A stretch of DNA of 32,628 nt from Nitrospirota bacterium (GTDB taxonomy: Bacteria > Nitrospirota > Nitrospiria > SBBL01 > JAADHI01): assembly GCA_029261135.1 (NCBI GenBank), contig JAJDBX010000011.1, positions 1-32,628 on the forward strand, given 5' to 3'. Position numbers and translations under genes: made by a program. The notes below the pieces were generated by a model. That model searched no databases, was not told the DNA's origin, and worked only from the letters and a program-made list of their open reading frames with translations. Below are positions 4,521 to 21,022 of the stretch, piece by piece. Each line of letters opens with the position of its first letter. Positions within the stretch are counted from its first letter, which is position 1.

Positions 4521-5133
4521 AAAACTAGAGTACCATTTGGAAAAATAAGCTGCAATCCGGAAATTTTCCAAAATATTGCTGGATGTCGTTTTAAGATAGG
4601 CACAAACATCAAGATTTATGTTTTATGACTTCAGAATTTTTAGCATTCAAGCGGATAGGAGGATCTGAAGCGGGGTCAGGTGCAGAAAACTGGGGTAAGC
4701 CAGAACATGCGAAGGCCTTGTCAGATTTTTTGTTTTATAATAATCTGGACAATGACAGCGGAAAAACCAAGCATAATCAATCGGGACAGGATTATGCCCC
4801 CACCGGGGAATTCAGATGGCGCGGCCCCTATGTTGAGGCTCCGGAAATACTGGATCCTTGAGGACAATCTTAGCCCGGTACTTTTCAGGAAACCCCATTT
4901 CGAGATGAAACGGGATATAATGAAGATCATCTTCAGGGTGATGATATTGGTGTGATGGTGAGATCCAATTAGAAGTATTGATTTTTGAGATCTCAGCGGA
5001 TCACTGTTCTATCCACGATGAACTTTCCTGATTAAAAATACTTTCAGTTCTTAATTACTCTTTTGTATTCACGATATTGGTATCCTTTATGTTGCTAAGT
5101 TTTTGTTTTGAATGAGTTTTTGAAGTCAAAACA
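4521..5133. other. Long intergenic region without a confident gene
   Basis: About 600 bases between divergent genes. Open frames occur on both strands (plus strand 4625-4861 and 4680-4955; minus strand 4721-4930), but none has a ribosome-binding site or a recognised family. On the minus strand two adjoining frames around 4720-5000 have protein-like composition broken by stops, which could be a decayed gene; this is speculative. I see no RNA gene. The AT content rises toward 5000-5160, where the promoter of the next gene probably lies. Confidence 0.4.
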
Positions 5134-5160
5134 TTGATTTTTTCACAGAAATGGTATACA
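5134..5160 (+). promoter_or_regulatory. Possible promoter of the AMIN protein gene
   Basis: TTGATT (5134-5139) and TATACA (5155-5160) are separated by 15 bases, which is short. Each matches the consensus hexamer at four of six positions. It would leave a leader of about 85 bases, containing a small hairpin AAAGG/CCTTT near 5178-5195. Weak evidence. Confidence 0.25.
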
Positions 5161-5251
5161 CATAACTATGTCTACCTAAAGGGCAAATTCCTTTAATGTC
5201 AATTAACGAGAAAAAGCGGGCGAAGAAATCAACGCTAAGGGGGAGGTGTAA

Positions 5252-6268
5252 ATGGGCGACCAACTAGCCGGACGCTTTCGATTGCTTAAGATGGGAGCCA
5301 TAGTGATGGTCTTGTCTGCCACATACTCTTGTGCTGTTAAAACAACGCGGAGGACAATCAGCTCACCGGATCCGATTAGAATTCAAGATATTCGTGTTGC
5401 TGAAGGGATCGACAAAACAATCATAGAATTGGAATCGGATGAACCAATTTTATATACCTCGTTTCGACAATCCGCCCCGGATAGACTGGTCATCGAAATG
5501 GCCGATGTGACCTTTGGTCAATATCAAGATAAGATAAAAATTCCTGAGGGACCTGTTCGTTCGATCACACTGGCATCAAGCGGGGAGCTTGATGTTTCTC
5601 GTCTTGAGTTTGAGCTGAATGGTTTGGTGAAGACCGAAGTCCGACCGGAAGGACTAAATATTGTGATTGAAGTGACCCGTCTCGAAAAAATGACGGGTTT
5701 TGGAAAAGAAGTCCAAGTTGAAGAAAAACATCAAAAAAAGTTTATATTCATGGGGGATGGTCAGGAAAAACCACCTGCAACTCTGACTGGGAAGCCAGGC
5801 ACGGAAGATGTGGATGCACTGTCTGTCGATATCGAGCCCTCTATCGTCCCTTCTTTGGTTCCGACTGCGCCAATGGTCATAATGGATGTGCCCGGAGTCA
5901 ACACGGAAAAGGCCTCTTCTCCCCCCGCCGTTGTCTCGAAAAAAGAAATGACAAAGATGCCTCCGGCCAAGTTTGTTTCTGAGGTGAAATTTGTACAGGC
6001 GAATGGGCTTCAACTCGTGATCACTTCGGATGGAGATTTGTCACCCGATATTTTTTTCGTGGGTAAAAATAAAAAGCGCTTGGTTATTGATTTTCCTGGT
6101 GTTAAATCGACGATGAAGCGCGGTAACATTCTTGGGGATGACCTTTTTGTGAAGCAGGTTCGTTTTGGGCAGCATCCCAAGAAACTCCGCCTTGTGCTTG
6201 ATCTCATGAAGCCGGTTATTTTCGCCTGGGATCAAAAACAGAATGAACTTTGGGTCACATTAAAATAA
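5252..6268 (+). CDS. Two-AMIN-domain envelope protein, probable lipoprotein
   Basis: 338 residues; start ATG 5252 follows a strong GGGGGAGGTG ribosome-binding site. A hydrophobic segment at residues 14-26 ends at Cys27 in a loose lipobox (TYSC), so a lipoprotein is likely though not certain. Residues about 41-142 form one AMIN-type beta domain (IRIQDIRVAEG, DRLVIEMADV, RSITLASS, SRLEFELN) and residues about 241-338 a second (LQLVITSDG, KRLVIDFPGV, VKQVRFGQH, LRLVLDL). A Pro/Thr/Lys-rich linker joins them. AMIN domains bind peptidoglycan or envelope partners in PilQ secretins and AmiC amidases, but here no secretin or amidase domain follows. It probably acts as a periplasmic cell-wall-binding or scaffold protein. 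No pilus genes are nearby. Confidence 0.8.
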   Translation: MGDQLAGRFRLLKMGAIVMVLSATYSCAVKTTRRTISSPDPIRIQDIRVAEGIDKTIIELESDEPILYTSFRQSAPDRLVIEMADVTFGQYQDKIKIPEGPVRSITLASSGELDVSRLEFELNGLVKTEVRPEGLNIVIEVTRLEKMTGFGKEVQVEEKHQKKFIFMGDGQEKPPATLTGKPGTEDVDALSVDIEPSIVPSLVPTAPMVIMDVPGVNTEKASSPPAVVSKKEMTKMPPAKFVSEVKFVQANGLQLVITSDGDLSPDIFFVGKNKKRLVIDFPGVKSTMKRGNILGDDLFVKQVRFGQHPKKLRLVLDLMKPVIFAWDQKQNELWVTLK

Positions 6269-6421: not shown

Positions 6422-7405
6422 ATGTTTAATAATAAGATCATAAGGCTCGGATTTTTAACCGTCTTTATTTTAATTTTTGGGGCATTCGGACTCAACTATT
6501 TTGAGAACACCCCTTCCCTGATGGATGCCTTGTGGTGGAGTTTTGTGACCATTACAACGGTCGGTTATGGGGACGTGACCCCGACGACGATCGGGGGTCG
6601 AGCGACCGGGGTGATCGTTATGGTGTTTGGCATCGGTCTGCTGGGCATGTTTACGGCAACCGTGGCCAGCATTTTTGTGGAGGGAAAGCTGAAAGAGGGA
6701 AAAGGTTTGAAAGCAGTCACAGTGACCGATCATTTTATTGTCTGCGGTTGGAATTACAAAGCGGAAGAAATTGTTGAAGAACTGCGTGCGGATCTAAAAA
6801 TGAAGGAACGGCCCATCGTTTTAATTGCGGATCTCTCTGAACAACCTATTGAAGCTGAAAATGTTTATTTTGTTGCCGGATTGGTTACCGAAGAAAGTCT
6901 TAAAAAAGCCAATATAAGCGAAGCCGCTGTTGTCTTGATCATTTCTGACGAACGGCTGGATTCTCACTCGAGTGACGCAAAGGTGGTTTTTAATACCTTA
7001 ACGGTGCGTTCTTTCCACCCGGATATTTATATCTGTGCGGAGATTACCGATGTGAAGAGCACACAACATTGTAAAATGGCGGGTGCCAATGAAATCGTGG
7101 TGATCGGTGCATTAAGCAGTAATCTTTTGGTGCAGGCGGCGCTTGATCATGGTATTACGCACATGATCTCCGAACTGATCAGTAATAAAACTGGCAGCAA
7201 CCTTTATAAAATGATGCCCCCGGAAGATCTGATCGGCCGACCTTTTATTGATGCCTTGACAGAATTAAAGCGGGATCATAATGCGATTGCACTTGCGATT
7301 GAATCCAAAGATGAAAATCGATTTATATCAAACCCGTCCATGAGCTATGCAGTTCAGGAGGATGATCTCTTTGTTGTGATTTCTGAAGAACGACCACAGG
7401 TTTGA
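6422..7405 (+). CDS. Two-TM potassium channel with RCK (TrkA-N/TrkA-C) domain
   Basis: 327 residues; an in-frame stop lies directly before ATG 6422, so the start cannot be earlier. TM1 is at residues 8-26, the pore helix at about 33-45, the K+ selectivity filter TVGYGD at 46-51 and TM2 at about 62-86. The cytoplasmic part begins HFIVCGWNYKAEEIVEEL (104 on), the RCK Rossmann fold with a changed glycine motif. It ends in a TrkA-C module (DLIGRPFIDALTELK to ISEERP). This is the MthK-type layout, in which RCK rings gate the pore in response to a ligand such as Ca2+ or a nucleotide. It is the first gene of the PspA/DUF350/spermidine synthase cluster; K+ channels of this kind recur in such clusters, which suggests a role in ion balance during membrane stress. 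Confidence 0.93.
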   Translation: MFNNKIIRLGFLTVFILIFGAFGLNYFENTPSLMDALWWSFVTITTVGYGDVTPTTIGGRATGVIVMVFGIGLLGMFTATVASIFVEGKLKEGKGLKAVTVTDHFIVCGWNYKAEEIVEELRADLKMKERPIVLIADLSEQPIEAENVYFVAGLVTEESLKKANISEAAVVLIISDERLDSHSSDAKVVFNTLTVRSFHPDIYICAEITDVKSTQHCKMAGANEIVVIGALSSNLLVQAALDHGITHMISELISNKTGSNLYKMMPPEDLIGRPFIDALTELKRDHNAIALAIESKDENRFISNPSMSYAVQEDDLFVVISEERPQV

Positions 7406-7457
7406 CCTAAGTGCTTGAAGAATTGTTGATGATTACGAAATCAGGGGGAATGAAACG

Positions 7458-7856
7458 ATGTCTGAAAACTATGAAAAAGTAAGAAACTATCTACTGGAGT
7501 TGGGCCTGTCCATTACCAGTGAGGACGAGAAGGAAGAGTTGGCCGTTGTCGAAGATGAAGAAAAAGGCATTAAAAATTTAATCGTTGATTGCGAAGCACC
7601 CATCCTGATTATCGAGCAGACGATTATGCCTGTTCCCGCAAAGAGCGAGACCCTCTACAAACGCCTGCTTCAGATGAATCGTACGCTGGTGCATGGTGCT
7701 TTTGTGCTTGATGAGGATGAGAAAAACGTGCTCTTTCGGGATACGCTTCAACTCGAAAACCTTGATTTGAATGAATTAGAGGGATCGATCAATGCACTCA
7801 GTCTGGCCTTGGCCGAAAATGCCAACGAGCTGATTGCATTTAGCAAAGGGGAATAG
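7458..7856 (+). CDS. YbjN-like (type III chaperone fold) small cytoplasmic protein
   Basis: 132 residues from ATG 7458 with ribosome-binding site AGGGGGAA. It is acidic and soluble, with no signal or membrane helix. The segment LLQMNRTLVHGAFVLDED followed by VLFRDTLQLENLDLNELEGSI matches the helix-strand pattern of the YbjN family, often labelled Tir/CesT-type chaperone. E. coli YjfI (DUF2170), which occupies the same place before a PspA paralogue, has a related layout, so the two may be equivalent. It probably binds a partner protein of the cluster, with PspA an obvious candidate by position. No enzymatic motif is seen. It lies 52 bases after the channel gene and 61 before pspA. Confidence 0.75.
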   Translation: MSENYEKVRNYLLELGLSITSEDEKEELAVVEDEEKGIKNLIVDCEAPILIIEQTIMPVPAKSETLYKRLLQMNRTLVHGAFVLDEDEKNVLFRDTLQLENLDLNELEGSINALSLALAENANELIAFSKGE

Positions 7857-7917
7857 ATCCCTGAGTGGTTTTTTTTCGAAAAAAACGCGATTAAAATGAA
7901 CGATAAGGAGAAATCTG

Positions 7918-8628
7918 ATGGCAGGCATTTTTCAGCGATTATTTAAAGTCGGGCAATCTGAAGCCCATAGCGCAATTGATAAATTTGAAAATCCAATCAA
8001 ATTGACCGAGCAAGGCATTCGTGATCTCAAAAAAGATTTGCAAGAATCCATGAAAAGTCTTGCCGAGGTGAAGGGCGTTGCCATTCGTCTCAAGCGAGAA
8101 GCGGAAGAAGATAAAAAGCGTGCAGTGGATTATGAGCGAAAAGCGATGTTGCTCTTGAAGAAAATGGAGAGTGGGGAGTTAGAAGCGGCCCAAGCAGAAC
8201 GATTGGCTTCAGAATCTTTAAGCCGAAAAGAAGAGGTGAGTCAGAAAGCGGTTCGTTTGACGCAAGATTGGGAGAAGCAGGATAAAATGGCGGCGCAGCT
8301 TCAACGTAATGTCGAAAAATTGAAATCGACCGTTTCGGCCTACGAAAATGACCTGATCACCCTTCGGGCCAGGGCGAAAACAGCCTCGGCGACGCGTAAA
8401 ATTAATGAGCAAATGGCAAAGGTCGATTCTTCTGGCACCATCTCCATGCTGGAAAAGATGAAATCAAAAGTGGAAGAAGACGAAGCCCTCGCGGAATCCT
8501 ATGGGGAGATGGCTGCCGTAGACAAGAGTGTTGACGATGAAATCAACGCCGCTTTAGAGGGGGGCTCAACCAGTCCTGCGAGCGACCAGCTTATCGCGCT
8601 GAAGAAGAAAATGGGCATCACGCAGTAA
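7918..8628 (+). CDS. pspA: PspA/IM30 family membrane-stress protein
   Basis: 236 residues from ATG 7918, with AAGGAG eight bases upstream. The N-terminus MAGIFQRLFKVGQSEAHSAI is the membrane-binding amphipathic start of the family; a long Lys/Glu-rich coiled coil follows from about residue 25 to 165. Then come SGTISMLEKMKSKVEEDEALAES and a C-terminal helix ending KKKMGI. Family members polymerise into ESCRT-III-like rods and rings that stabilise damaged inner membrane and limit proton leakage. No pspF regulator or pspBC is nearby, so this is not the classical phage-shock operon; the YjfJ-like context with YbjN, DUF350 and spermidine synthase fits better. The next gene of the cluster is displaced by the pseudogene insertion. 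Confidence 0.93.
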   Translation: MAGIFQRLFKVGQSEAHSAIDKFENPIKLTEQGIRDLKKDLQESMKSLAEVKGVAIRLKREAEEDKKRAVDYERKAMLLLKKMESGELEAAQAERLASESLSRKEEVSQKAVRLTQDWEKQDKMAAQLQRNVEKLKSTVSAYENDLITLRARAKTASATRKINEQMAKVDSSGTISMLEKMKSKVEEDEALAESYGEMAAVDKSVDDEINAALEGGSTSPASDQLIALKKKMGITQ

Positions 8629-8631
8629 AGT

Positions 8632-8638
8632 GTTAGGG
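8632..8638 (+). other. Possible cassette boundary (GTTRRRY-like core site)
   Basis: GTTAGGG starts three bases after the pspA stop and differs from the integron core GTTRRRY only in the last base. It stands directly before the foreign pseudogene, where a cassette boundary is expected. A single short motif carries little weight on its own. Confidence 0.3.
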
Positions 8639-8667
8639 TTAATGAACCGCAAAATAGAAGCCAAAAA

Positions 8668-9305
8668 TTGAGTCCAAACAATATACAATATTTGCCTATT
8701 AAATATGCAAAAAGCTTAGTCATCTCTGGAAATATAAAAATTGGGACACTGCTAGGTTATCAAAATATTGAAGAATTAGGTAGTGAAATAGGGGATAAGG
8801 ATGAGGGTATTACGATAGAGTTTCGCACGACAAAGAACCAAAACCAGGAGATGAATTAAACTCACTTGAAAGCACCGCTATTAAAGCCGGTTCAGGAATG
8901 ATCGTGTTAGGAAATTATATTGAAAAGAGATATTTATCACCGGATCTATTCTTATTTTGTGCCTCGTTGTCTTATGACGATTCAATATTAAAGAAAATAA
9001 ATAAAGATTGTCCTAAAGATAAATGCGATTCCTGCGTAAAAATAACCAATCTGAACGATTTTGTCGAAGAAATTAACGCAGTATTTTCTGATAGAGGAAG
9101 ATTCATAGGTTGTGTTCAATGTGCATATTAGAGAAAGGAAGGACCATTACACTGAAAAAAACGTATCCTGCAATTACAAAAAGATACAAGGTATTCCTAT
9201 CAAAATGAAGTTCGATTAATTTGGGAAGCAATTAGTAGTGAAAGTCCGATAGAATCAGAATATTTGAGCATTTCGAATATTAAAAAGTATTGCCGCTTGT
9301 GTTGA
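8668..9305 (+). pseudogene. Frameshifted gene of unknown family, probable decayed cassette gene
   Basis: Three reading-frame segments read as one former protein: frame A from 8668 (LPIKYAKSLVISGNIKIGTL, then GDKDEGITIEF), frame B from about 8845 (KPGDELNSLESTAIKAGSGM onward, through FLFCASLSYDD and KINKDCPKDKCDSCVKI to QCAY, stop 9129-9131), and after a brief move into frame A (KDHYTEKNV) back to frame B (KDTRYSYQNEVRLIWEAI to the stop at 9303-9305). At least three frameshifts are needed. The pattern (an early G-x-I-x-I-G-T-L, a D-x-D-E-G, a C-A-S strand and a late Y-Q-N-E-V-R-L-I-W-E) recalls uncharacterised proteins common in mobile islands, but I cannot name a family. It is more AT-rich than its neighbours. 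The only start seen is a TTG without a ribosome-binding site. Confidence 0.7.
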
Positions 9306-9401
9306 AGACAAGCCCTCACACGGCGCTCAACCCGACCGCATAATACCTTGCTTGGTTTTGTTGGGTTGTTTTCCGGCCGGATTAGCTTAGTTGATAGATG
9401 C
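9306..9401 (+). repeat. Degenerate attC-like recombination site
   Basis: Immediately after the pseudogene stop is an imperfect inverted repeat. CAACCC (9328-9333) pairs with GGGTTG (9363-9368), with weaker outer pairing of ACAAGC (9308-9313) and GCTTAG (9385-9390). The 3' end reads GATAGAT, one base from the core GTTAGAT (GTTRRRY). Size, position after a gene end and the ACAAGC...CAACCCGACC start resemble integron attC sites, but the 5' core is not recognisable. Best read as a decayed attC. Confidence 0.4.
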
Positions 9402-9450
9402 ATTTTTAGTTTTGTTGTGGTAGGACAATAATTTTGAATCGGGAGATCAT

Positions 9451-10092
9451 ATGACAGGAACCATTATTATTTTACTCATTGTTTGTGGTGTTGTTTTTTT
9501 TATGATGAATAAAAAAAAGTCCGATTCATCAAAAGAGAAGATCCCGTCCACGCGCCCTGCATCAATCCCTTATGCAAAAGATGAGCTACGCATCGAAAAT
9601 GTGGAAGCCGGCGGGATGATTCATATCTCTGGTATCGGCCCGAATGTGGATGAATATGATGTGAATGTCATTGCCAGACACCTCTATCGTCAAGGTGGAT
9701 CCACTTGGTACGAGCTTGAAGGGGAATCGACCGAAGATAAAGTTTGGATCGACCTCGAAGAAGATGACGGACTGGAATTAACGATTACCCTGAAGAAAAT
9801 GAAACTGCGCGATGTGGATCTGAATAAAGAAAAACTCGATGAAATCGACGATGAAGAAGACGGGGAGATTGTTTACGAAGGCGAAAAATATTATTACGAG
9901 GATTCTGATCGCGCGATGTATTACAAATATGGCGACGAAAACAAGGGCGAGCGATTCTATTATTGGGATTTCGAGAATAAGGCAGGTGACAAGTTTATTG
10001 GCGTTGAGAAGTGGGAAGATGGCGCGTATGATGTGTCCTACAGTGAATCGATTGCGCCACATCAAGTCACGGTGTTTAGCCTAAAGAAATAA
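9451..10092 (+). CDS. DUF4178 membrane-anchored protein
   Basis: 213 residues from ATG 9451 with GGGAG upstream. Residues 3-19 are a single hydrophobic helix followed by Lys residues, so the bulk faces the cytoplasm or is simply anchored there. The remaining acidic beta-rich part (GGMIHISGIG, HLYRQGGSTWYELEGES, VWIDLEEDDGLELTI, YYYEDSDRAMYYKYG, RFYYWDFENKAGDKFIGVEKW) fits DUF4178, a domain found next to DUF350 and polyamine genes in many bacteria. No catalytic motif is evident; the role is unknown. It is the first intact gene after the inserted pseudogene and lies 10 bases before the DUF350 gene, so the two are almost certainly co-transcribed. Confidence 0.8.
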   Translation: MTGTIIILLIVCGVVFFMMNKKKSDSSKEKIPSTRPASIPYAKDELRIENVEAGGMIHISGIGPNVDEYDVNVIARHLYRQGGSTWYELEGESTEDKVWIDLEEDDGLELTITLKKMKLRDVDLNKEKLDEIDDEEDGEIVYEGEKYYYEDSDRAMYYKYGDENKGERFYYWDFENKAGDKFIGVEKWEDGAYDVSYSESIAPHQVTVFSLKK

Positions 10093-10102
10093 GGGACAAG
10101 AT

Positions 10103-10948
10103 ATGGAAAATCTGGGCTATGAAATTTTGCATGGCGGAAGCCTGATCCTGCTGTTTATGTTTATCCTGCTTCTCGCGAAAGAGGCCAATGACTTTTTTAC
10201 CCCCTATAAAGTTGATGAACACTTGCATGAAAAAGACAATGTGGCTTTGGCTACGAGCATGGCAGGTTATCTCGGCGGAACAACCATTGTTTTTATCGGT
10301 GCTTTTTTAGGCCCTTCTAAAGGCATCTTAGAAGACCTTGTTTCTGTCGGTGGGTTTTCCATTGTTGGGATTCTGCTTTTAAACCTCTCTCATGAAATCA
10401 ATGACCGCTTTCTCCTGTACCGATTTTGCAACGTGAAAGAGATTATCGAAGATCGGAATATCGGCGCGGGGGCCGTCCAGTTCGGTTCTTACATGGCTTC
10501 CGGTTTGATTGTTGCCGGGTCGATTCATGGCGAAGGCGGCGGCATTGCCACAATCGCGGTCTTTTATATTCTCGGGCAAGCGGCCCTGATTTTTTTTACG
10601 TGGTTTTACAACAAGATCACGCCTTTCGACATTCACTATGAAATTGAGCAGGACAATGCGGCAGTGGGTATTGCGTTAGGCGGTACCCTCATGGCTGTCG
10701 GCATTATTTTAATGAAAGGCGCGTCAGGGAATTTCGTCAGCTGGGCTGATAATCTATCCATTTTTGCAATGGATGCGGTCTTGGTTTTTATCCTATTGCC
10801 CGTCGTTCGATTCTTTTTTGACAAAGTGATTATGCCGAGGACTTCTCTCAACCATGAGATTCAACATGACCGTAACATGGGTGCGGGCTTGCTCGAAATG
10901 GTGGGCGCTATTTCTTTTTCTATTATTCTGTTATTTGTGATGGGGTGA
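10103..10948 (+). CDS. Double DUF350 integral membrane protein (YjfL-like)
   Basis: 281 residues from ATG 10103 with AAGGGA just upstream. About eight membrane helices are arranged as two copies of the four-helix DUF350 unit. The repeated signature is an acidic loop entering a Gly-rich helix: KDNVALATSMAGYLGG (44-59) and QDNAAVGIALGGTLMAVG (183-200). A further charged loop, EDRNIGAGAVQFGSYMASG, closes the first half and HDRNMGAGLLEM repeats it near the end. Family function is unproven; membership of stress and polyamine clusters and conserved acidic residues in membrane loops suggest transport or sensing. E. coli YjfL is the single-repeat relative beside the PspA paralogue YjfJ. Confidence 0.88.
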   Translation: MENLGYEILHGGSLILLFMFILLLAKEANDFFTPYKVDEHLHEKDNVALATSMAGYLGGTTIVFIGAFLGPSKGILEDLVSVGGFSIVGILLLNLSHEINDRFLLYRFCNVKEIIEDRNIGAGAVQFGSYMASGLIVAGSIHGEGGGIATIAVFYILGQAALIFFTWFYNKITPFDIHYEIEQDNAAVGIALGGTLMAVGIILMKGASGNFVSWADNLSIFAMDAVLVFILLPVVRFFFDKVIMPRTSLNHEIQHDRNMGAGLLEMVGAISFSIILLFVMG

Positions 10949-10973
10949 TTAAAAAATTGAGTTTTGATCGCTG

Positions 10974-11549
10974 ATGGATAAAAAAGACATGTCTCAGGCT
11001 GGGATGGCGCTGATTTTTTTTGCTATTTTAAGCTTTGTGACCGCACTGGTGTTTAATGTGAGCACAGACTCACCCATTGATCAATCCCTGCCTCCCACTG
11101 GGGGCGTGGTCGGCCCCATCACGGTTGAAAAGGATCGCACCGTTTACCAAATTCAGGTGGGTCAAGAGCTGCCTCAAAACGGCCCTGGAAACCAAGTGAC
11201 CGGCATTGTGCTCGATAAAGATAAAAACCCGCTCTTTAGTTTTGGTGAAGATTTTTGGAGTGAATCGGGTTATGATTCTGACGGGTCCTGGTCTGAAAAG
11301 AAGACCTCCTATGACATCAAGGTGACCCTAGAAAAAGGAAGCTATTTTTTTGAATTAGAATCGGATAATTCGACCGCGAGTTTAAGTCAGATTCGCATTA
11401 TTGTGAAGAAAAAAGGCGGGAGCGCGGTGCCTTTCTTTATTGCGGGCATTATTGCACTGATTATTGGCGTCATCCTCAATGAAATGTCCAAAGGCACCAT
11501 TGGAAAAGGCTTAAAAAATTTGGATTCGGGAGCCAGTCGATGGGGATAA
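10974..11549 (+). CDS. Small two-TM protein with extracytoplasmic beta domain
   Basis: 191 residues from ATG 10974, without a clear ribosome-binding site; translation may depend on the preceding gene 25 bases upstream. A first helix at about residues 10-27, a beta-rich central part (TVYQIQVGQELPQ, VTGIVLDKDKNPLFSFGEDF, SYDIKVTLEKGSYFFELES, LSQIRIIVKK) and a second helix at about 152-168 suggest a periplasmic sandwich domain held at both ends. The family is not recognised. Its last ten bases overlap the next gene, which supports tight coupling within the cluster. Confidence 0.75.
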   Translation: MDKKDMSQAGMALIFFAILSFVTALVFNVSTDSPIDQSLPPTGGVVGPITVEKDRTVYQIQVGQELPQNGPGNQVTGIVLDKDKNPLFSFGEDFWSESGYDSDGSWSEKKTSYDIKVTLEKGSYFFELESDNSTASLSQIRIIVKKKGGSAVPFFIAGIIALIIGVILNEMSKGTIGKGLKNLDSGASRWG

Positions 11550-11836
11550 AAAAAGGCTTACAAGCATCGCATTCTTCCCCCTTGAGTCATGTGCTGAAGA
11601 ATCAACGCGGTGGGATTTTTATCGGGGTCATCATTTTTTTAGTGGTGATCTACCTGTTTTTGTTCTCCCTGAGTTTTAGGGGATGGGGTTATCCAAGATA
11701 TTATGGCGGGTATGCCTATGGGCCGTCCTTTTGGTATTTTGGCGGCCCGCGATATTATAGTGGTGGCCCCAGCGTCAGAAGGGGGAGTACAGGCGGGCCC
11801 AATCGTGTGGGTGGCGGCCCACGGGCCGGCAAGTAA
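11540..11836 (+). CDS. Small membrane protein with Gly/Tyr/Pro-rich tail
   Basis: 98 residues; ATG 11540 overlaps the end of the previous gene by ten bases. A single helix lies at residues 25-44, followed by a low-complexity tail rich in Gly, Tyr, Pro and Arg (RGWGYPRYYGGYAYGPSFWY and PRYYSGGPSVRRGS). Tails of this kind occur in small uncharacterised proteins in DUF350/spermidine synthase clusters. Function unknown. The frame has a normal codon pattern and is bracketed by two real genes with no gap, so I regard it as genuine. Confidence 0.7.
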   Translation: MGIKKGLQASHSSPLSHVLKNQRGGIFIGVIIFLVVIYLFLFSLSFRGWGYPRYYGGYAYGPSFWYFGGPRYYSGGPSVRRGSTGGPNRVGGGPRAGK

Positions 11837-11842
11837 CACAGG

Positions 11843-13378
11843 ATGAATTCAGAAGTTCAATCGGGATCCAAAAAAGAAATATCCATCCTGATTATTTCCA
11901 TCTTTATCGCCGGGCTTTGCTCCATTGTCTACGAGCTGCTCATTAGTACCGCGTCTTCTTATTTTTTAGGCGATAGTGTGAAGCAGTTTTCGATCACCAT
12001 CGGCCTTTACATGGCGGCGATGGGGATCGGCTCTTATATCTCCCGTTTAATCAAAAAAAACCTTCTTTCCAAATTTATCGCCGTTGAAATCCTGCTCGGA
12101 TTCCTGGGGGGCATGAGCGTTCCCATCCTTTATTTTTGTTATGCCTATACAGATTTTTATTCTCTTTATATGGTGATTGTGATCCTTGCGATTGGTATTT
12201 TAATCGGTTTAGAAATTCCATTGCTCACGCGCATTATGGAACGCTACTACACCTTAAAAATTAATATCTCCACCGTACTTTCGATAGATTATCTCGGGGC
12301 CTTAATCGCCACACTGCTCTTCCCATTCATTCTATTGCCTTTTCTCGGGACTTTTAAAAGCGCGCTTTTTTTTGGTCTGATTAACATGGGCATCGGGTTT
12401 TTAAACCTGTGGTGTTTTCGAGATGTACTCAATGTGGGACGAAGAAGGCTATATGGTATCGCATCCATCGCCGTTTCGGTTTCACTGTTGCTCATCTTTC
12501 TTTCGGCGCCTTTGTTTTTAAAACAGTGGAGCAACAGTCTTTATGAGGATCGCATTATTTTTTCACAGCAGACAAAGTACCAGAAAATTATTTTGACCAA
12601 AAATAAAGCAGACCTTCGCCTTTTTTTAGATGGCAATCTGCAATTTTCATCCATTGATGAATACCGCTATCACGAAGCCCTGGTACACATTCCCTTTGGC
12701 TTTGCCGAAAATCAGACCCATGTGCTTCTATTAGGCGGCGGGGATGGTTTGGCGATTCGGGAGATGTTGAAATACCCGGATGTCAAAACCATTACTGTGG
12801 TGGATATCGATCCAGAAATCACACGGATTTCAAATGAAAACCGGCATTTGCGCCAAATGAATCAAGGCAGTTTGTTAGATGCCCGCGTCACGGTCATCCA
12901 TGAAGATGCCTTTGTTTTTTTAAAAGATGTGCAGCAGAAGTTTGATGTCATTATCGCAGACCTCCCGGATCCCAATAATGTCTCACTGGCGCGTCTTTAC
13001 AGCCAAACCTTTTATCAACTTGTCGGGGCGAGGCTGAAACCCAAGGGGGTTTTTTTAACGCAGGCCACAAGTCCTTATTTTTCAAAAAAATCATTTTGGT
13101 GTATCAACACGACCATTGACGCCGCAGGTTTGAAGACCTATCCCTACCATGTTTACATCCCTTCTTTCGGGGACTGGGGTTTTGTGCTCGGCTCAAGAAA
13201 CGATCTCGACCCGAAGACGATCGAAATTGAGGTGCCCACACAATATTTGGAAGAAGACATTCTGGAAAGCCTCTTTGCCTTTTCGAAAGACCTTCTTGAT
13301 GAAGATACTGCCCCCAGTACCTTAGACAAACCTGTGATCTTGAGTTATTACCTGAAAGGCTGGAAATATTGGAATTAA
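11843..13378 (+). CDS. speE: Membrane-fused polyamine aminopropyltransferase (spermidine synthase-like)
   Basis: 511 residues from ATG 11843, six bases after the preceding gene. Residues 12-225 contain about seven membrane helices (GLCSIVYELLISTASSYFLG, LAIGILIGLEIPLLTRIME, DYLGALIATLLFPF). Residues about 235-470 form a spermidine synthase domain: LFLDGNLQFSSIDEYRYHE, LLLGGGDGLAIREML with GGGDG at 298-302, VVDIDPEI and ADLPDPNN with the acidic catalytic loop. The family transfers the aminopropyl group of decarboxylated AdoMet to putrescine or similar amines. Membrane-fused forms are common in stress clusters and may have altered substrates. No speD or ornithine/arginine decarboxylase is in the window, so the donor must come from elsewhere or the substrate differs. 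Confidence 0.88.
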   Translation: MNSEVQSGSKKEISILIISIFIAGLCSIVYELLISTASSYFLGDSVKQFSITIGLYMAAMGIGSYISRLIKKNLLSKFIAVEILLGFLGGMSVPILYFCYAYTDFYSLYMVIVILAIGILIGLEIPLLTRIMERYYTLKINISTVLSIDYLGALIATLLFPFILLPFLGTFKSALFFGLINMGIGFLNLWCFRDVLNVGRRRLYGIASIAVSVSLLLIFLSAPLFLKQWSNSLYEDRIIFSQQTKYQKIILTKNKADLRLFLDGNLQFSSIDEYRYHEALVHIPFGFAENQTHVLLLGGGDGLAIREMLKYPDVKTITVVDIDPEITRISNENRHLRQMNQGSLLDARVTVIHEDAFVFLKDVQQKFDVIIADLPDPNNVSLARLYSQTFYQLVGARLKPKGVFLTQATSPYFSKKSFWCINTTIDAAGLKTYPYHVYIPSFGDWGFVLGSRNDLDPKTIEIEVPTQYLEEDILESLFAFSKDLLDEDTAPSTLDKPVILSYYLKGWKYWN

Positions 13379-17353: not shown

Positions 17354-18154
17354 TTAACAAAGATTAACGAGCTTATCCATGATGATCTCTGCCCCTTTTT
17401 TCCCTGATAACAGCATGGCACCAAAAGAAGGCCCCATTCTCGGGCTGCCGTAGGCGGCGGCGACGGAAAGGCCAACCATGAATAGCTTGGGGTAGGCTTC
17501 ACCTGTATTTTTCATGACCAAAGCTTCCGAATTCTCAACCCACATGGCCCCGTTTCCAGGGACTTTTTCATGTAAACCCCGCTTGGCCAATATTTGAAGG
17601 GCGATGGCGTCATGTCCGGTCGCATCCACCACCATTTTGGATTCGAGGGCGATGGGATCCACATGAGCCAGATCATGGTTCATGACTTCGAGGGGGTACC
17701 AATTGACAACGACTCCTTCAAGATGGTTGTTTTCACCACGAATGATGAGATCGACGACCCTTGTCATGTTGAGTACCGTAACGCCGGCTTCATAGGCTGC
17801 GGCAATCAGTTTTCCTGTTGCGTGAGGGGGGTCAACAATACTCATTTCGTCAGAGATTTTTTTGCAGGGAACCCCGATCTTTTCTAAGATTTCTTGTGCA
17901 GGGTGGGCAATGGCGGCCTTGTTCATTAAATATCCGCCATTCCAAAACCCGCCGCCAAGGTGGTTCAGTTGTTCAATAATGACGACATTGAGTCCGGAGG
18001 CGGCGAGTTCTGTGCCGCAGACCAGTCCGGAAGGGCCTGATCCGATGATCACGACATCGGATGAAATGATATGGTCAAAGGTGCTATACCATTCCCGTGC
18101 GATGGTTCGAGTGATTTCAGCCTCATGTAGTGGGGCAATTTCTCTTGATTCCAT
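17354..18154 (-). CDS. thi4: Thi4-type thiazole synthase, likely sulfide-dependent
   Basis: 266 residues from ATG 18154 with AGGAG (18166-18170) upstream. The N-terminal FAD/NAD-binding Rossmann motif is VVIIGSGPSGL (residues 34-44); further family marks are EQLNHLGGGFWNGG, VDATGHDA, GMLL-like GPSFGAMLLSGKKGAE and the RMGPSF loop (239-244). Thi4 makes the ADP-thiazole half of thiamin from NAD and glycine. In yeast and plants the sulfur comes from the protein's own Cys, making it a single-turnover enzyme. Here the matching position is His164 (LAHVDP instead of the C-M-D-P type), as in archaeal and some bacterial Thi4 proteins that use free sulfide and Fe(II) catalytically. It lies 32 bases downstream of thiC. 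The name is used by homology; such genes are also called thi1 or archaeal ribose-1,5-bisphosphate isomerase-like in older databases. Confidence 0.92.
   Translation of the reverse strand: MESREIAPLHEAEITRTIAREWYSTFDHIISSDVVIIGSGPSGLVCGTELAASGLNVVIIEQLNHLGGGFWNGGYLMNKAAIAHPAQEILEKIGVPCKKISDEMSIVDPPHATGKLIAAAYEAGVTVLNMTRVVDLIIRGENNHLEGVVVNWYPLEVMNHDLAHVDPIALESKMVVDATGHDAIALQILAKRGLHEKVPGNGAMWVENSEALVMKNTGEAYPKLFMVGLSVAAAYGSPRMGPSFGAMLLSGKKGAEIIMDKLVNLC

Positions 18155-18186: not shown

Positions 18187-21022
<2,836 letters not shown>

Follow-up and report, generated by a model that had tools for sequence, protein, structure and literature searches.

A PspA–CesT/Tir gene cluster in a Nitrospirota bacterium with a membrane-fused aminopropyltransferase and a lysine-ended candidate substrate

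An eight-gene cluster and its conservation

We analyzed a window of 32,628 nucleotides from a Nitrospirota bacterium, which corresponds to contig C3 in a draft genome of 3.2 Mb whose nearest named relatives are Nitrospirota metagenome-assembled genomes, including a Candidatus Manganitrophaceae. Between positions 6422 and 13378 of its plus strand lies a cluster of eight genes, in which a PspA protein and its chaperone-type partner stand together with a K+ channel, a DUF350 protein, a spermidine synthase-like enzyme fused to membrane helices, and a small protein that ends in lysine.

Domains were assigned by Pfam and NCBIfam profile searches. The first gene (6422–7405) encodes an RCK-gated K+ channel with two transmembrane (TM) helices and a TrkA_N/Slo-like RCK domain (PF07885, 3e-18; PF22614, 5e-11; PF02254, 3e-10). 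It is followed by a CesT/Tir-YbjN-like chaperone-type protein (7458–7856; PF22550 CesT_Tir_1, 3e-54; PF10722 YbjN, 4e-7) and by an ESCRT-III-like PspA/IM30 protein (7918–8628; PF04012, 2e-42), so that PF22550 and PF04012 stand in adjacent genes at 7458–8628 as a CesT/Tir-PspA dyad. Further downstream are a DUF4178 protein with one N-terminal TM helix (9451–10092; PF13785, 5e-16) and a membrane protein with two DUF350 repeats of the YjfL type (10103–10948; PF03994, 2.5e-48, in two stretches), the only DUF350 protein of the genome. The next two proteins (10974–11549 and 11540–11836) had no match above the cut-off in Pfam and none in NCBIfam. The last gene (11843–13378) joins a seven-TM domain to an aminopropyltransferase of the PRK03612 type (Spermine_synth; NF002956, 632 bits against a cut-off of 472). 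An earlier sequence-only reading of the window had recognized these domain identities, and the profiles bore them out; it had counted seven genes where there are eight, all of them intact and on the plus strand.

The cluster is interrupted: about 820 nucleotides between the PspA and DUF4178 genes (8629–9450, plus strand) hold broken frames only. This insertion, a decayed gene outside the system, is found in this genome only; the same gap measures 13–50 nucleotides in five relatives. No frame is open across it, its decayed frames (for example, SPNNIQYLPIKYAKSLVISGNIKIGTLLGYQNIEELGSEIGDKDEGI) gave no credible Pfam match, and the gene could not be named. With a GTTAGGG close to the left end and GTTGGGT/RYYYAAC-like motifs close to the right one, the insertion bears a faint resemblance to an integron cassette. 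A promoter scan performed no better than chance and was not used to define transcription units.

The same gene order was found in four congeners and in another genus of the family (G005), with the K+ channel as the first gene in all five and PspA 80–92% identical. The second genus lacks the MMPL, AMIN, and nuclease genes at the flanks of the unit. Because the flanks differ there, the unit is delimited by the K+ channel gene at one end and the fused-enzyme gene at the other, and because the order recurs both in congeners and in a genus with different flanks, the cluster is not due to chance. The gene for the small lysine-ended protein is often shadowed in mechanical calling of open reading frames (ORFs), yet it is readable in all five relatives.

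To look beyond the family, we searched GTDB genomes using a fused-enzyme alignment, which gave 71 named loci, and sought the partner genes with iterated profiles. DUF350, a homolog of the 10974–11549 protein, and the fused enzyme occur together in Nitrospirota, SAR324, Alpha-, Gamma-, and Zetaproteobacteria, Verrucomicrobiota, and Bacteroidota. In many loci, this set is joined by PspA and by a chaperone-like gene, of either the YbjN type or DUF2170, and in several by the K+ channel; clusters with the channel were seen in Verrucomicrobiota (L054) and in Gammaproteobacteria (L153, L155, and L160) as well. The genes are thus kept together in relatives and in other phyla, which upholds the earlier view of the cluster as a single system.

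Several further genes were seen within these clusters. A short J-domain-like protein (YRALEVPVDSDRKTVKTAYRRLMKRYH), possibly a co-chaperone, lies right before the YbjN-PspA pair in clusters of Nitrospirales and Bacteroidota (L067, 11233–11703; L048 and L050, about 5035–5385). In several proteobacterial clusters, a protein of an M50B-like intramembrane protease family (PF13398, 3.5e-37) stands between speD and the DUF2170-PspA pair (L057, 4122–4793; L104, 4356–4994; also L064). An Alteromonas plasmid cluster (L116) holds a TelA (toxic anion resistance) gene at 10512–11618 together with SpeD, fused SpeE, DUF4178, a K-tailed lipoprotein, and DUF350.

The fused enzyme and its aminopropyl donor

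An AlphaFold2 model of the fused enzyme, built with 62 sequences (predicted local distance difference test score, pLDDT, 88), contains seven long helices at residues 10–220 and an aminopropyltransferase fold after them. The best match in the Protein Data Bank was the triamine/agmatine aminopropyltransferase of T. thermophilus (3anx, E 1e-17), and the fold is closest to the T. thermophilus enzyme and to plant triamine/thermospermine synthases. Nine residues of the active-site region (Q247, Q267, D272, E273, Y276, H277, D323, D355, and D376) are invariant in the 62 sequences. The loops after helices 2, 4, and 6 carry on average 2.0, 1.7, and 3.2 Lys/Arg per sequence and those after helices 1, 3, and 5 carry 0.8, 0.1, and 0.6; by the positive-inside rule, the catalytic domain is predicted to lie outside.

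In Novosphingobium-type clusters, a gene resembling flavin adenine dinucleotide (FAD)-dependent amine oxidases directly follows the fused enzyme (L114, 9442–11058; L174, 4439–6070; L175, 4718–6337), with the Pfam match shown for the L114 protein. The K-tail of these clusters ends in S/T-H-K, and the oxidase-like protein is a possible eraser or further modifier of an aminopropyl group.

The cluster had been described as lacking both an S-adenosylmethionine (AdoMet) decarboxylase and an ATP-grasp enzyme. The first is true locally, but a speD gene lies on contig C42 of the same genome, and we rejected the idea that the missing local speD marks a dead or different pathway. The second holds genome-wide: neither this genome nor seven relatives gave a match to the GSP-type ATP-grasp family (PF03738), which was recovered from the E. 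coli and Caulobacter controls. Elsewhere, speD adjoins the fused enzyme in Nitrospirales, Alphaproteobacteria, Zetaproteobacteria, Verrucomicrobiota, and some Bacteroidota. Since speD is present in the genome and often stands beside the fused enzyme in other groups, the enzyme very probably uses decarboxylated AdoMet. On contig C12, a separate soluble SpeE is encoded beside a decarboxylase of the ornithine/arginine type, and these genes appear to cover ordinary spermidine.

A conserved lysine at the end of a dedicated tail

The two proteins that the sequence-only reading could not place can now be described. The first, of 191 residues (10974–11549), was modeled by AlphaFold2 (pLDDT 88) as a jelly-roll beta-sandwich between two TM helices, with the sandwich predicted to be periplasmic. 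The model matches pre-peptidase C-terminal, GOLD, and TNF-like sandwiches (Z about 9–10), which points to a fold typical of extracytoplasmic domains, and homologs were found in 42 loci. The second protein (11540–11836) has 98 residues, one TM region, a Gly/Tyr-rich stretch, and the terminus R-x-G-S-x-G-G ... G-G-G-P-x-x-G-K. Across phyla, the fused enzyme is nearly always accompanied by a membrane protein or lipoprotein that varies in other respects but ends in lysine, and this tail protein is a strong candidate for the missing substrate of the enzyme. By positive-inside charge, the tails and the enzyme domain are predicted to lie on the same, outer side of the membrane.

The Gly-Lys tail was present in the window and in all of the GTDB loci in which DUF350 stands beside the fused enzyme (35/35, out of the 71), either as a separate protein or fused to the beta-sandwich. 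These loci belong to Nitrospirota, Alphaproteobacteria, Gammaproteobacteria, Zetaproteobacteria, Verrucomicrobiota, SAR324, and Bacteroidota. Thirty homologs are separate proteins, and every one ends in GK. Where the small gene is missing (Pseudoalteromonas, Catenovulum, and SAR324), the beta-sandwich protein carries the tail at its own C-terminus, again with the GK end. Among 33 unique tails, K-1, G-2, and S-16 are found in all and R-19 in 32. The codons of the tail vary (GGC, GGT, GGA, and GGG for glycine, AAA and AAG for lysine) and all three stops are used; because these codons are used freely, the constraint on the tail end acts on the protein. A DNA-level cause, such as the ribosome-binding site of the next gene, was rejected, as codons and stops vary and the following sequence differs.

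As a background, 60 of 4048 ORFs end in GK, tails included, and none of 24 genes upstream of a canonical speE ends in lysine. Among fused-enzyme loci without DUF350, those of Lewinella and Saprospiraceae did not contain the tail motif. K-terminal neighbors were scattered over 9 of the 36 loci of this kind, one of which (L058) is a further true tail, on a cut contig. A genome-wide search of five Lewinella-type genomes, which have the fused enzyme but no local DUF350, found no DUF350 at all.

We then read a further set of 26 independently found loci, of which 18 came from a sample of the class of L071, five from plasmids, and three, all new, from a sample of the class of L065 (L172 repeats L108). 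A K-terminal neighbor was found in 21 of the 26; DUF350 was located next to the enzyme in 18 of the 26, and 17 of these have such a neighbor. By mechanical gene calls alone, the gene directly upstream of DUF350 is K-terminal in 11 of 14 cases; the other carriers, whose ORFs are short or overlapped, were recognized when the loci were inspected. By BLAST, the carriers form 11 unrelated groups, although the independent origins would be fewer than 11 because very short carriers may be undetected homologs. They include single-TM proteins of 45–67 residues, lipoproteins of 193–215 and of 309–536 residues, and a DUF4178-like protein with a terminal tail. Twelve of them (193–536 residues) are lipoproteins or lipobox-like, with flexible Ser/Gly/Arg tails that end in RGK, GGK, or SGK. 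Neither the beta-sandwich nor the tail protein of the window has a lipobox on reading, whereas many gammaproteobacterial K-tail carriers do.

One locus and one genome carry more than one such tail. In L173 (9816–10421), the cluster has two beta-sandwich genes and two GK-tailed proteins, as if duplicated; one of the latter is of the 98-residue type and the other, of 201 residues, ends in SGFSGGK. A Pseudoalteromonas genome (G058) has two different fused-SpeE clusters (L071 and L154), each with its own DUF350 and GK tail, carried by a beta-sandwich fusion in one and by a 314-residue lipoprotein in the other.

Elsewhere in the window, a thiamine pyrophosphate (TPP) riboswitch lies on the minus strand at 20166–20270 (Rfam RF00059, 68 bits) and overlaps an ORF call upstream of a thiC-like gene (18187–20364, minus strand), which adjoins a Thi4-like gene (17354–18154, minus strand).

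Known systems, proposed function, and alternatives

The cluster type is already known, and the window holds a slightly variant member of it. The second CesT/Tir-PspA group of Ravi et al. (2024, PMC11237479) comprises a 7TM-SpeE, DUF350, a lipoprotein, and DUF4178 (example AAN56744–AAN56747, by its accessions apparently from Shewanella oneidensis MR-1), and the authors suggested polyamine monitoring or the aminopropylation of other substrates. The window shares with this group the dyad, the 7TM-fused SpeE, the YjfL/DUF350 protein, DUF4178, and a further uncharacterized membrane protein or lipoprotein. In the published group, the lipoprotein has a Ctha_1186 domain and the YjfL-type DUF350 protein has eight TM helices; the window was matched to it on the two DUF350 repeats and DUF4178. 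Unlike that group, the window has no RHH gene and adds a separate K-tail protein and the RCK K+ channel, the latter being part of the third, ATP-grasp group in the same study (PMC11237479). The link between membrane stress and polyamine-like chemistry that the sequence-only reading drew is therefore also the published view, and that reading is partly supported overall. The main text of PMC11237479 makes no mention of lysine, and a full-text literature search for this combination found no other paper joining the terms. We believe the lysine tail and its Gly-Gly counterpart, described below, to be new.

The counterpart is found in clusters built around an ATP-grasp ligase. Like the window, yjfIJKLMC and ygiBC of E. 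coli combine a PspA paralog, a chaperone-like protein, DUF350, polyamine chemistry, and a membrane protein or lipoprotein with a Gly/Ser/Arg-rich tail, and two ATP-grasp clusters (L168 and L177) share the RCK channel. They differ in having a ligase in place of the aminopropyltransferase, DUF2491 and DUF1190 in place of DUF4178, the beta-sandwich, and the tail protein, and a Gly-Gly end; no DUF1190, DUF2491, or GSP_synth domain was found by Pfam in the cluster proteins of the window. The tails of YjfM and YgiB, the partners of the ATP-grasp proteins YjfC and YgiC, end in Gly-Gly, as do the partners in six of seven further ATP-grasp loci; in the one exception (L178), the gene lies where the contig ends and its frame or terminus is altered. 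YjfC and YgiC are annotated in RefSeq as peptide-spermidine ligases, a name that reportedly stems from a 2023 study by Pederick and colleagues. An ATP-grasp ligase needs a carboxylate and an aminopropyltransferase needs an amine, so the Gly-Gly and Lys termini fit their respective enzymes. The ATP-grasp and fused-SpeE versions of the cluster look like alternatives with different partner C-termini.

Membrane-fused SpeE-like enzymes like that of the window are also said to have been described by Li and colleagues (Biochemical Journal, 2019; reference 89 of PMC11237479) as MFS-SpdSyn fusions in clusters with an AdoMet decarboxylase (AdoMetDC) and a DUF350 linkage; the acceptor was reportedly thought to be other than putrescine and the substrate was left open. 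Such fusions reportedly did not complement an E. coli speE mutant in that study. Here, a specific protein terminus is proposed as the acceptor.

Starting from the observed unit, its conservation, the aminopropyltransferase fold with its conserved active-site residues, the speD gene in the genome, and the lysine-ended tail, we propose that the module is a PspA-CesT/Tir envelope-stress unit arranged around a membrane-bound enzyme that aminopropylates the C-terminal lysine of the tail, a reading whose chemistry we infer and to which we give an even chance. SpeD would make decarboxylated AdoMet, and the fused enzyme would transfer the aminopropyl group to the C-terminal lysine of the Gly/Ser/Arg-rich tail protein (11540–11836), probably to its epsilon-amino group. 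Like putrescine, the side chain of lysine is a C4 amine, so that the product would be a spermidine-like cation fixed at the membrane surface. The beta-sandwich and DUF350 proteins may hold enzyme and tail together in a membrane complex or serve transport, and PspA, its CesT/Tir partner, and the K+ channel may couple the state of the surface charge to membrane repair and ion flux; both suggestions are drawn from which genes occur together and agree with the view of Ravi et al. (PMC11237479). The sister ATP-grasp clusters would reach the same end by joining spermidine to the C-terminal glycine of a lipoprotein.

Several points weigh against this proposal. Fused enzymes of the Lewinella type, with speD and without DUF350, have no tail, and therefore a fused enzyme can have another role. 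A periplasmic enzyme domain would require the export of decarboxylated AdoMet, for which we know of no precedent, while a cytoplasmic domain would mean that the tail must be modified before its own export; the topology itself is drawn only from AlphaFold helices and charge counts. The further set is partly selected, because some carriers were found by looking for lysine. Finally, the stretches read for Burkholderia (L113), L156, L158, and L163 held no K-tail, and L159 is a 4-kb contig.

The alternative that fares best is that the fused enzyme is a membrane-tethered spermidine or spermine synthase that supplies free polyamine near the membrane, with the K-tail protein as a structural partner. 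PRK03612 is named as a polyamine aminopropyltransferase, the active-site residues are kept, the closest fold is that of a triamine/agmatine aminopropyltransferase, speD is often adjacent, and the Lewinella-type clusters have the enzyme and SpeD without a tail. However, a soluble SpeE is already encoded elsewhere in the genome, next to an ornithine-type decarboxylase, such fusions reportedly fail to complement an E. coli speE mutant (Li and colleagues, 2019), and neither the C-terminal lysine kept on many kinds of carrier nor the split between GG and K ends among cluster types would be explained; we consider this alternative unlikely.

We regard two further explanations as less probable again, and about equally so. 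The tail may act purely as a signal for docking or sorting, with DUF350 or PspA as possible partners, and with a lipid or another envelope molecule as the true acceptor. The conservation of R-19 and S-16 besides the terminus is what a binding motif would show, and "other substrates" for aminopropylation were left open in PMC11237479, but docking motifs rarely need their very last residue fixed as lysine across differing carrier architectures. In Braun's lipoprotein (Lpp), a membrane-anchored protein, the terminal lysine is cross-linked to peptidoglycan by L,D-transpeptidases, and the tails, predicted to be periplasmic and carried in 12 cases by lipoproteins or lipobox-like proteins with flexible, lysine-ended segments, might likewise tie the membrane to the wall; yet Lpp is an outer-membrane lipoprotein that forms a trimeric coiled coil and has no dedicated aminopropyltransferase, the tail protein of the window is an inner-membrane single-TM protein, the cluster has no transpeptidase, and the lysine tracks the aminopropyltransferase, giving way to GG where the enzyme is an ATP-grasp ligase.

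Aminopropylation of the lysine tail could thus be one form of a widespread modification with two chemistries, in which fused enzymes aminopropylate the C-terminal Lys of dedicated tails and ATP-grasp ligases spermidinylate a C-terminal Gly, both within PspA/DUF350 envelope-stress systems; we hold this wider view a little more tentatively than the proposal for the cluster itself. It brings the substrate question of the membrane-fused SpeE-like enzymes, which occur in many phyla, the Gly-Gly ends beside the peptide-spermidine ligases, and the role of DUF350 and its partners into one testable hypothesis, the polyamination of a protein terminus. If true, this would add a kind of post-translational modification not seen before and would account for the frequent association of PspA-type membrane maintenance with polyamine genes.

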